Of a DNA stretch of 64,000 nt, positions 9,642-13,053 are shown piece after piece. Origin of the DNA: Verrucomicrobiia bacterium (GTDB taxonomy: Bacteria; Verrucomicrobiota; Verrucomicrobiia; Limisphaerales; CAIMTB01); the NCBI GenBank assembly GCA_019634625.1, contig JAHCBA010000001.1, positions 248,001 through 312,000 of the forward strand, given 5' to 3'. How positions within the stretch are numbered: the stretch's first letter is position 1; each line of letters starts with the position of its first letter. A program made the translations under genes and the position numbers. The notes beneath the pieces were generated by a model that was not told where the DNA came from, did no database searches, and worked only from the letters and a program-made list of their open reading frames with translations.

Positions 9642-10106
9642 ATGCACATCTCGCGCGCAGGAGAATACGGAGTGCTCGGTCTGCTCCGACTGGCCCAGCA
9701 GCCGGTCGGCCAGCCGGTCATGATCGATGCCGTCAGCCGGGATGAGTCCATTCCCAAGAGCTTCCTCGCCAAGATCTTCCAGGACCTCGCCAAAGCCGGA
9801 ATCCTGCGCTCCCAACGCGGTGCCGGCGGCGGCTTCGCCCTCGCCCGCCCCGCCGGGCAAATCACCGTCCTCGAAGTCATCGAGGCCATCGATGGCAAAA
9901 TCGCCCTCCAGCGTTGCCTCGGTGAAGTCCCCGATTGTGAACGACGCGAAGGCTGCGTCCTCTGCGGCCTGTTCGAACAAGCCCAGGACCGCCTCAAGGA
10001 GGTGTTCGGCCAGACCACCCTCGCCGATCTCGCCCGCCGCTCCATTGCCGGTCACCCGCACGCCCTCGCCACCCCTGACCCCGTTTCCGTTCCCACTCCC
10101 CTCTAA
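9642..10106 (+). CDS. Rrf2 family transcriptional regulator, IscR-like
   Basis: 154 residues. The N-terminal winged helix-turn-helix contains the family wing block SQRGAGGGFALARP. Four cysteines (Cys92, Cys99, Cys105, Cys108) lie in the loop that holds the Fe-S cluster ligands in IscR-like members, so cluster sensing is plausible. As first gene of a run with IscU, an IscS homologue and Mrp, it most likely controls Fe-S assembly genes in response to cluster status. An inverted repeat just upstream of its start is a candidate autoregulatory site. CymR- or NsrR-like ligand specificity cannot be excluded from sequence alone. Confidence 0.88.
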   Translation: MHISRAGEYGVLGLLRLAQQPVGQPVMIDAVSRDESIPKSFLAKIFQDLAKAGILRSQRGAGGGFALARPAGQITVLEVIEAIDGKIALQRCLGEVPDCERREGCVLCGLFEQAQDRLKEVFGQTTLADLARRSIAGHPHALATPDPVSVPTPL

Positions 10107-10130
10107 ACCTTGAATTCCGGAGATCCAGTC

Positions 10131-10565
10131 ATGAGCGATACCTACACCCTGTACAACAAGACCGTGATGGAACACTTCCTCAACCCCCGCAACATGGGCG
10201 ACCTGCCCGATGCCGATGGCGTGGGAGAGGTCGGCGCCGCCGCCTGCGGCGACATCATGAAAATGAGCCTCAAGGTCGAAAACGGCCGCATCCTCGATGC
10301 CCGTTTCAAAACCTTCGGCTGCGGGTCCGCCATCGCCAGTTCCAGCATGGCCACCGAACTCATCAAGGGCCGTACGGTCGAAGAGGCCCTCCAGTTCTCC
10401 AACCAGGAGGTCGTGGATGCCCTCGGCGGTCTTCCCCCGGTCAAAATCCACTGCTCGGTCCTTGCCGAGGAGGCCCTCAAGGCCGCCCTCGAAGACTACG
10501 TCAAGCGCCACCCGGAGGCCGCTTCCAAGGTGAGCCCAGCCGCCCTGGCGCCCTCGCCGGCCTGA
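10131..10565 (+). CDS. iscU: IscU-like Fe-S cluster assembly scaffold
   Basis: 144 residues from the ATG at 10131, preceded by a GGAG ribosome-binding site; a TTG at 10110 is less likely. All scaffold ligands are present: Cys39 and Asp41 in ACGDIM, Cys64 in FGCGSAIASSS and Cys108 in KIHCS. The LPPVK motif at 101-105 is the HscA chaperone docking sequence of true IscU proteins, although no hscA or hscB is nearby. The protein builds a transient [2Fe-2S] cluster on sulfur from a cysteine desulfurase. It follows the regulator by 24 bp. A tail of about 15 Ala/Pro/Ser residues extends beyond the usual end. Confidence 0.94.
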   Translation: MSDTYTLYNKTVMEHFLNPRNMGDLPDADGVGEVGAAACGDIMKMSLKVENGRILDARFKTFGCGSAIASSSMATELIKGRTVEEALQFSNQEVVDALGGLPPVKIHCSVLAEEALKAALEDYVKRHPEAASKVSPAALAPSPA

Positions 10566-10698: not shown

Positions 10699-11964
10699 AT
10701 GCGCCAAGTCTATCTCGATCACCTTTCGTCCACGCCCCTCCTGCCCGAGGCCTTCGAGGCCATGAAGCCCTACTTCCTCGACGCCTACGGCAACCCGTCC
10801 TCACTCCACCAGCACGGGCTCCGCGTCCGCGATGCCCTCGCCCGGGCCCGCACCCAGATCGCCGCCCTCATCAACGCCGAGTCCGCCGACGACATCCTCC
10901 TCACCTCCTGCGGCACCGAGTCCGTCAACCTCGCGGTCAAGGGCGTCGCCTACGCCAATCGGCGCCGCGGCAATCACATCGTCTGGAGCGAGGTCGAGCA
11001 CCCGGCGGTGATGAATTCGGTCGAGTTCCTCGAGAAGGAAGGCTACTCCCACACCAAGGTCCCCGTGGACCCCGAGGGCCGCGTCCTCGTCGATCGCCTG
11101 GTCGAGGCGATCACCGACAAAACCACCCTCATCTGCCTCCAGCTCGCCAATCACGACATCGGCACCCTCCAGCCCGTCGCCGAGGTCGGCCGCATCGCCG
11201 CCGAGAAAGGCATCGCCTTCTTCGTCGATGCCAATTCCGCCGCCGGCTGGACCCCCATCGACGTCCAGAAACTCGGCGCCAACCTGCTTTCCCTCTCCCC
11301 CCACCGCTTCTACGGACCCAAGGGAGTCGGGGTCCTTTACCGCAATCGCCGCGCCCGCCTCGTCAGCATCCTGCACGGAGGCGTCCAGGAGAACGGCCGC
11401 CGTGCCGGCACCGAAAACGTCCCCGCCATCGTCGGCGCCGGGGTCGCCGCCGAACTGGCCCTCCGCGACATGGCCGCCCGCATCGCCCATGTCGCCCCGC
11501 TCCAGGCCCGGCTCTGGAACGGTCTCAAACAGCGCATCCCCTACATCAAGCTCAACGGCCCGGAACCCGGTCCCGACCGCATCTGCAACAACCTCAACCT
11601 CTCCACCGAATTCATCGAGGGCGAGGGCCAGTTGCTCCTCCTCGACCTCAACGGCATCGCCGTGGCCAGCGGCTCAAGCTGCGTCAGCAAGTCCCTCAAA
11701 ATCTCCCACGTCCTCGCCGCCATCGGCCTCGATCACGCCCTCGCCCAGGGCAACCTCATCCTTACCCTCGGCAGGGACAACTCGGCCGACGACATGGATT
11801 ACGTGGTGGAGACCTTCGCCGGAATCGTGGACAAGCTCCGCCACATGTCCCCCATGTGGGAGGAGTTCCAGAGCGGTGTCATCGACTCCGTCATCCACCC
11901 CACCGGCCGCGGCAAGTCCTTCAGTGCCCATGCCGCCGATGTCTCCGGCAAACGCGCCCACTGA
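10699..11964 (+). CDS. IscS/NifS-family class V aminotransferase-fold protein lacking the PLP lysine
   Basis: 421 residues, aligning by eye over its full length with IscS, including the C-terminal SPMWEEFQSGV segment that in IscS contacts IscU. The mobile catalytic cysteine is kept (Cys328 in ASGSSCVS), as is His101 in EHPAV. The cofactor lysine, normally in an S-x-H-K block, is replaced by Arg203 in LSLSPHRFYGPKG (codon CGC at 11305-11307). The usual DAxQ block reads VDANS (Ser180) and NNE reads NHD (His152). Standard desulfurase chemistry through a PLP-lysine aldimine is therefore not expected. A structural or regulatory partner of IscU, or different chemistry, is possible. Start chosen at MRQVYLDHLS. 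It lies 133 bp after iscU and 15 bp before mrp. Confidence 0.88.
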   Translation: MRQVYLDHLSSTPLLPEAFEAMKPYFLDAYGNPSSLHQHGLRVRDALARARTQIAALINAESADDILLTSCGTESVNLAVKGVAYANRRRGNHIVWSEVEHPAVMNSVEFLEKEGYSHTKVPVDPEGRVLVDRLVEAITDKTTLICLQLANHDIGTLQPVAEVGRIAAEKGIAFFVDANSAAGWTPIDVQKLGANLLSLSPHRFYGPKGVGVLYRNRRARLVSILHGGVQENGRRAGTENVPAIVGAGVAAELALRDMAARIAHVAPLQARLWNGLKQRIPYIKLNGPEPGPDRICNNLNLSTEFIEGEGQLLLLDLNGIAVASGSSCVSKSLKISHVLAAIGLDHALAQGNLILTLGRDNSADDMDYVVETFAGIVDKLRHMSPMWEEFQSGVIDSVIHPTGRGKSFSAHAADVSGKRAH

Positions 11965-11979: not shown

Positions 11980-13053
11980 ATGACCCCACCCGACCAGGTC
12001 CTCGGCGTCCTCAAAACCATCCGCTACCCCGGGTTCAGCCGGGACATCGTGTCCTTCGGGCTCGTCAAGGACACCGCCGTCGCCAACGGCGCCGTCACCG
12101 TCACCCTCCAACTCACCAGCGCCAACCCCGACGCCGCCCGCCAGATCAAGGCCGAGGCCGAGACCGCGCTGCGTGCCCTGCCCGGGGTCGAACGGGTCTT
12201 CGTGGACGTCCGGCAACCCGCCGCCTCCCCAGCCCAGGGCGCTCCTGCCCAGGCCGCCGCATCCGGCCCGCAGGGCGGCCCATGGTCCCAGCAGAACCGC
12301 GTGCCCGGTGTCCGACGGGTGGTGGCCGTCGCCAGCGGCAAGGGCGGCGTCGGCAAATCCACAGTCTCGGCCAATCTCGCCTGCGCCTTCCAGCGCCTCG
12401 GCCTGGCCACCGGACTCCTCGACTGCGACATCTACGGCCCCAGCATCCCCCTCATGATGGGCTGCCGCGAACGCCCCGAGGTCAGCGCCGACCAGAAGCT
12501 CATCCCCCCCGTCCACCACGATGTCCGCCTCATGAGCATCGGCTTCCTCATCGAGGACGACCAACCCGTCATCTGGCGCGGCCCCATGATCGTCAAGACG
12601 ATCCAGCAGTTCCTCATGCAGACCGACTGGGGTGGCCTCGATGTCCTGCTGGTGGACCTCCCCCCGGGCACCGGCGACGCCCAGCTCACCCTCTGCCAGT
12701 CCGTTCCCCTCGACGGCGGCGTGGTGGTCACCACCCCCCAGGAGGCCTCCGTCGGCGTCGTCCGCAAAGGCATGGCCATGTTCAACAAGCTCCATGTCCC
12801 CATCCTCGGCATCGTCGAGAACATGAGCTACTTCACCGCCCCCGACGGATCCCGTATCGAGATCTTCGGCCACGGCGGCGGCGCCCGGGAAGCCGAACGC
12901 GCCCAGGTCCCCTTCCTCGGCGAAGTCCCCATCTTCACCGAGATCCGCGCCGGCGGCGATGCCGGTGTCCCCGTGGTCGTCGGCGCCCCCGACACCCCGC
13001 CCGCCCAGGCCTTCCTCCGCCTCGCCGAATCCCTCCGCGGCCGCCTCGCCTGA
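11980..13053 (+). CDS. mrp: Mrp/NBP35 (ApbC) family Fe-S carrier ATPase
   Basis: 357 residues. An N-terminal MIP18/DUF59-type domain (about 1-80) is joined by an Ala/Pro/Gly linker (80-108) to a ParA-like P-loop domain with the deviant Walker A GKGGVGKST (120-128) and LLVDLPPGTGD. Family members transfer Fe-S clusters to apoproteins. The CxxC pair found in many homologues after ENMSYF is absent (ENMSYFTAPDGSRIEIFGH), as in a cysteine-less subgroup known from other bacteria. It lies 15 bp after the IscS-like gene, so translation in the same transcript is likely. Confidence 0.92.
   Translation: MTPPDQVLGVLKTIRYPGFSRDIVSFGLVKDTAVANGAVTVTLQLTSANPDAARQIKAEAETALRALPGVERVFVDVRQPAASPAQGAPAQAAASGPQGGPWSQQNRVPGVRRVVAVASGKGGVGKSTVSANLACAFQRLGLATGLLDCDIYGPSIPLMMGCRERPEVSADQKLIPPVHHDVRLMSIGFLIEDDQPVIWRGPMIVKTIQQFLMQTDWGGLDVLLVDLPPGTGDAQLTLCQSVPLDGGVVVTTPQEASVGVVRKGMAMFNKLHVPILGIVENMSYFTAPDGSRIEIFGHGGGAREAERAQVPFLGEVPIFTEIRAGGDAGVPVVVGAPDTPPAQAFLRLAESLRGRLA

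Follow-up and report, generated by a model that had tools for sequence, protein, structure and literature searches.

Assembly of iron-sulfur clusters on the scaffold protein IscU is taught to require a desulfurase in the same complex. The locus described here, which lies in a window of 64,000 nucleotides from a Verrucomicrobiia bacterium (the whole stretch of DNA that was analysed), raises the question of how IscU could be served when the IscS homologue encoded beside it lacks the lysine that holds pyridoxal phosphate (PLP), and what function would then be left for such a protein.

Sequence and predicted structure of R-IscS

The homologue, designated R-IscS, shows the full-length fold of class V aminotransferases (Pfam PF00266, Aminotran_5, 212 bits vs a cut-off of 21.5) and falls under the cut-off of every NCBIfam desulfurase model, NifS being the best (427 vs 530.75) and IscS reaching 344 vs 643. 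Its translation contains the motifs SLSPHRFYGPKG in the PLP lysine block, LANHDIGT, FVDANSA, EHPA with His101, and ASGSSCVSK with Cys328. E. coli IscS, whose sequence was verified against 1p3w, was used as the alignment reference. Relative to this enzyme, the internal-aldimine lysine is replaced (Lys206 to Arg203), as are the PLP-contacting Asn155 and Gln183 (to His152 and Ser180) and Glu156 (to Asp153), and Asp180, His104 and Cys328 are retained as Asp177, His101 and Cys328. The catalytic cysteine still lies on a mobile loop (residues 325-333, low pLDDT), and Asp177 is the residue that pairs with the PLP ring nitrogen. An AlphaFold2 model with a pLDDT of 84.5, which carries no information on cofactor content, finds its best Foldseek matches (E 1.9e-45) in NFS1-ISCU complexes and in the IscS proteins of A. 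fulgidus and E. coli.

Most of what had been claimed from the DNA letters alone is borne out by translation and alignment: the arginine codon at the lysine position, the further pocket changes in VDANS and NHD, and the retention of Cys328, His101 and an IscS-type C-terminal segment. It had also been argued that AAG or AAA becomes CGC by at least two substitutions, too many for a single base error; this exclusion stands, but three substitutions are in fact needed.

Table 1. Features of the isc locus and of R-iscS, in positions of the window
Feature	Position	Strand	Remarks
Rrf2-family regulator (IscR-like superfamily)	9642..10106	+	Pfam Rrf2 124.8 bits; NCBIfam rrf2_super above cut-off
iscU, Fe-S scaffold	10110..10565	+	TIGR03419 190.4 bits, cut-off 187.9
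R-iscS, IscS/NifS homologue without PLP lysine	10699..11964	+	421 aa
His152-Asp153 in place of Asn155-Glu156	11152..11157	+	
Ser180 in place of Gln183	11236..11238	+	
Arg203 codon (CGC), where E. coli IscS has the Schiff-base Lys206	11305..11307	+	
Cys328, persulfide/ligand cysteine, retained	11680..11682	+	
IscS-type C-terminal helix (SPMWEEFQ.G) and extra tail (GRGKS...SGK..H)	11848..11964	+	
mrp/apbC, Fe-S carrier P-loop NTPase	11980..13053	+	Pfam ParA/NUBPL 313 bits, FeS_assembly_P

Conservation among relatives

Homologues from Verrucomicrobiota were collected from a sample of 58 genomes and from 80 loci of named genomes, two sets that overlap in part and together give 110 sequences. Arg occupies position 203 in 105 of them and Lys in the other five, encoded by CGG (38), CGC (30), CGT (28), CGA (8), AGG (1), AAG (3) and AAA (2). 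The fixation of Arg203 in orthologues that keep the operon, which had been named as a point to check, is indeed found. The other replacements are also nearly fixed. Asn155 is replaced by His in 104/110 homologues, Glu156 by Asp in 108/110, and Gln183 by Ala or Ser in 106/110, whereas NNE and Gln183 are each present in 34/34 canonical enzymes. Cys328 is found in 110/110 homologues and in all 42 clade representatives, and much of the remaining pocket is retained (Asp177 110/110, His101 109/110, His202 106/110, Thr238 103/110). Pairwise dN/dS of R-IscS within the genus is about 0.08-0.16, which indicates purifying selection and lies in the range seen for the canonical NifS that these genomes also encode. 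Sequencing error is excluded by the arginine common to 105 of the 110 relatives and a pseudogene by the low dN/dS; R-IscS is a maintained protein, neither an error nor a relic.

Lysine at position 203 occurs in L017, L021/L113, L030 and L119. The sequence-only reading had named lysine-bearing orthologues in the same operon as a ground for its refutation; taken to the letter, two such genes do stand beside IscU (L017 and L113), yet Asn155 and Gln183 are still missing from them, as from the other lysine-bearing members. In the ones included in the tree, the Asp177 block reads DAEA. More damaged pockets are seen in deeper members of the clade. In one of them, L166 (genome G323), the PLP pocket is largely lost, with the equivalents of His104, Ser203 and Lys206 gone (Ser at His101, Gly at Arg203), and Cys328 stays, which suggests that the cysteine is important independently of PLP.

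The C-terminal helix separates these proteins from the NifS-type enzymes of the same order: an equivalent of Trp387 is present in 37 of 42 clade members, the other five being gapped, and in 0/12 of the NifS-type proteins. Over the whole IscU footprint, as taken from PMC2854127, a raised identity to E. coli IscS was looked for and rejected, the values being hardly above those of canonical enzymes; within this footprint, the Trp and EGE motifs alone stand out.

Genomic context and possible sulfur sources

The operon of the window reads rrf2-iscU-R-iscS-mrp, and the placement of the gene between intact iscU and mrp, as originally described, is correct. The upstream Rrf2 regulator remains under the IscR equivalog cut-off (81.6 vs 207.55). 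The real start of iscU is probably the ATG at 10131, and its product retains all three Cys, the Asp and LPPVK. Most of the named relatives of this locus come from Verrucomicrobiota MAGs, several of which bear the label Pedosphaera. Among 80 related loci, in counts limited by contig ends, IscU is encoded just upstream in 65, an Rrf2 regulator upstream in 57 and mrp just downstream in 34. In the scaffold itself, Cys46, Asp48, Cys71, Lys112 and Cys115 are conserved in 74-75 of 75 IscU relatives; the sole IscU with Phe at the first cluster cysteine (AAAFGD) is encoded at L159:1635-2024. In the retrieved stretches of the 80 loci, the C-terminal tail and a nearby IscU are found together in 65, the tail alone in 3, IscU alone in 5 and neither in 7. 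One operon is split, with rrf2-iscU about 69 kb away from R-iscS on the same contig (L161, genome G024).

In SUF-bearing genomes, less similar R-iscS genes often have no adjacent IscU, and several lie beside mrp. This suggests that IscU was perhaps not the original partner, and R-IscS may have been associated with mrp before it was with IscU.

The genome to which the window belongs (6.74 Mb, 97% complete) yielded no SufB/D, for which the control genomes were all positive, and a single NifU_N match in a profile search, which is the IscU of the operon; no second IscU was found. At a threshold of at least 150 bits, IscU is present in 15 of 58 genomes of the order, 13 of which, including this one, have no SufB/D. 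SufB/D is present in 41 of the 43 genomes without IscU and absent from the other two (G002 and G013), which are possibly incomplete. The Fisher p of 3e-9 for this distribution is descriptive only, as the genomes are related and the events not independent. Since neither SufB/D nor a second IscU was found in the window's genome, R-IscS and IscU are probably the main cluster-building system there, and likewise in the other 12 IscU-bearing genomes that lack SufB/D.

A second, canonical desulfurase, whose presence elsewhere in the genome had been left as a point to check, was found. The canonical HK motif occurs in at least three homologues, encoded on contigs C24, C2 and C31. The protein of C24 scores above the NifS cut-off and contains SLSAHK, NNE and DAVQ, and its gene lies next to, and is divergently oriented from, those of sulfite reductase (cysI), cysH and cysD. 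NifS-type proteins with SLSAHK are also encoded in most of the other SUF-less genomes examined. SufE as an obligatory sulfur carrier was considered and rejected, because it was not found in five SUF-less genomes (G007, G015, G019, G024 and G035). A lone SufE with the active-site cysteine motif VPGCTSRLW is encoded in the window's genome, which has no SufB/D, at C11:154928-155284 (L193:1465-1905, minus strand).

Descent

In a maximum-likelihood tree, the Arg-type proteins and the few Lys-bearing sequences with altered pockets form one clade with a support of 100, separate from the canonical NifS/IscS enzymes of Verrucomicrobiota, including those of the same genomes. The Lys-bearing L017, L021, L119 and L030 are nested within it, so that their lysine would most simply be a return from arginine. 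Once six long rows are removed, A. fulgidus IscS and the R-IscS clade are weakly supported as sisters (81); with those rows included, they are not sisters.

Proposed role and alternative explanations

The preferred reading, to which a probability of about two in three can be given, is that R-IscS is a former desulfurase that no longer makes a persulfide from cysteine but docks IscU, with Cys328 serving as a persulfide carrier or as a cluster ligand. The protein would have kept the IscS fold and would bind IscU through its IscS-type C-terminal helix. Cys328, on its mobile loop, could take up persulfide or sulfide sulfur made elsewhere and pass it to IscU; the source would be either sulfate assimilation or the canonical NifS-type enzyme that the genome also encodes. 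Alternatively, it might transiently ligate the cluster while this is being formed on IscU, as has been reported for A. fulgidus IscS, after which both the docking and the ligand or relay role are modelled here. Whereas the residue changes, their fixation, the operon, the lack of SUF matches and the canonical desulfurases are observed, we infer the loss of activity, the binding of IscU and the sulfur route. Desulfurase activity is absent from the E. coli IscS variants K206A, Q183E and H104Q (PMC9978102); with the counterparts of both Lys206 and Gln183 missing, cysteine desulfuration by R-IscS is unlikely, judging from these mutants. A sulfide route appears chemically possible, because H2S is able to feed IscU in anaerobic E. 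coli without IscS (PMC13015791). More tentatively, desulfurase and docking functions might be divided between two proteins in the main, probably sole, Fe-S assembly machinery of a large bacterial lineage: canonical NifS would make the sulfur, and a PLP-independent descendant of IscS, perhaps of common descent with the archaeal Lys-less forms, would present it to IscU.

The main rival to an inactive partner is the continued use of a PLP-like ligand, which we regard as unlikely. The conserved phosphate cup and Asp177 would hold PLP or PMP in the absence of a Schiff base, and an altered or slow cysteine chemistry would employ Arg203 or His152 as a general acid/base. Such a ligand may indeed still bind, given the invariant Asp177 and the largely conserved His101, His202 and Thr238, and the replacement residues are nearly fixed, as a functional pocket would lead one to expect. 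Some PLP is likewise retained by E. coli IscS K206A, but K206A or Q183E alone is enough to kill the activity of that enzyme (PMC9978102). In R-IscS, Lys206, Gln183 and Asn155 have all been lost, and the pocket residues vary or disappear in deeper members of the clade, in which Cys328 persists.

R-IscS could also be the inactive half of a heterodimer in which a canonical NifS-type enzyme is the active half and R-IscS supplies the IscU docking site. IscS enzymes are dimers, and the Lys-bearing NifS encoded in the same genomes lacks the C-terminal Trp helix. This arrangement is nevertheless quite improbable, given that R-IscS and NifS are only about 39-41% identical and that their genes are unlinked. 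Finally, an ordinary active desulfurase with Arg substituting for Lys is hardly credible in spite of the intact gene within an isc operon, because an internal aldimine is not expected from Arg and further catalytic residues are lost, and the error or pseudogene forms of this explanation are refuted by the arginine counts and dN/dS given above.

Comparison with known systems

The inactive IscU partner preferred here has archaeal precedents. A. fulgidus IscS, with Asp in place of the essential lysine, is reported to show no desulfurase activity and to ligate the [2Fe-2S] cluster of IscU through a cysteine, and M. acetivorans IscS1 is reported to be a Lys-less IscS encoded with an IscU (PMC7585200). 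The supposition of the sequence-only reading that no such class had been described therefore fails, and its interpretation is supported in part, as right in direction. No paper on a Lys-less IscS of Verrucomicrobia was found in the literature searched. Within that literature, a lineage-wide Arg form in bacteria and its role as apparent sole IscU partner in SUF-less genomes appear to be new.

A bacterial lineage seems to live without SUF, its IscU being paired with an IscS homologue that no longer has the catalytic lysine. It becomes testable whether IscS can fulfil its roles in cluster assembly (docking, cysteine ligand, relay) independently of its enzyme chemistry, for which about a hundred natural variants are on offer. 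Proteins of the R-IscS clade are probably misannotated where they are called cysteine desulfurases.

Among the known systems, E. coli IscS and human NFS1 share with R-IscS the fold (TM about 0.85-0.88), the IscU operon, Cys328 and the C-terminal Trp helix, whereas R-IscS is without the equivalents of Lys206, Asn155 and Gln183 and below the NCBIfam IscS/NifS cut-offs. The canonical NifS of contig C24 is homologous and 39% identical; unlike R-IscS, it has the three intact pocket motifs and passes the NifS cut-off, and it has no C-terminal helix Trp. M. acetivorans IscS1, similar in its reported lack of the catalytic lysine, differs in its archaeal host, which has two further IscSU pairs. A. fulgidus IscS (PDB 4EB5, 4HVK and 4R5F) resembles R-IscS in the IscS fold, the IscU partner (encoded alongside R-IscS in the window and in 65/80 loci) and the loss of the Schiff-base Lys with retention of the Cys. 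It also shares with the clade the change of Gln183 to Ala and the CxSK motif, with Lys three residues past the catalytic Cys; this residue, Lys331 in R-IscS (11689-11691), is Lys in 31/42 and Arg in 7/42 clade members and mostly Gly in the sampled canonical enzymes. The two proteins differ in that A. fulgidus IscS, from an archaeal anaerobe, has Asp for Lys and Asn for His205 and retains Asn155 and Glu156, whereas R-IscS is bacterial and has Arg, the change of Asn155 to His and an extra C-terminal tail.
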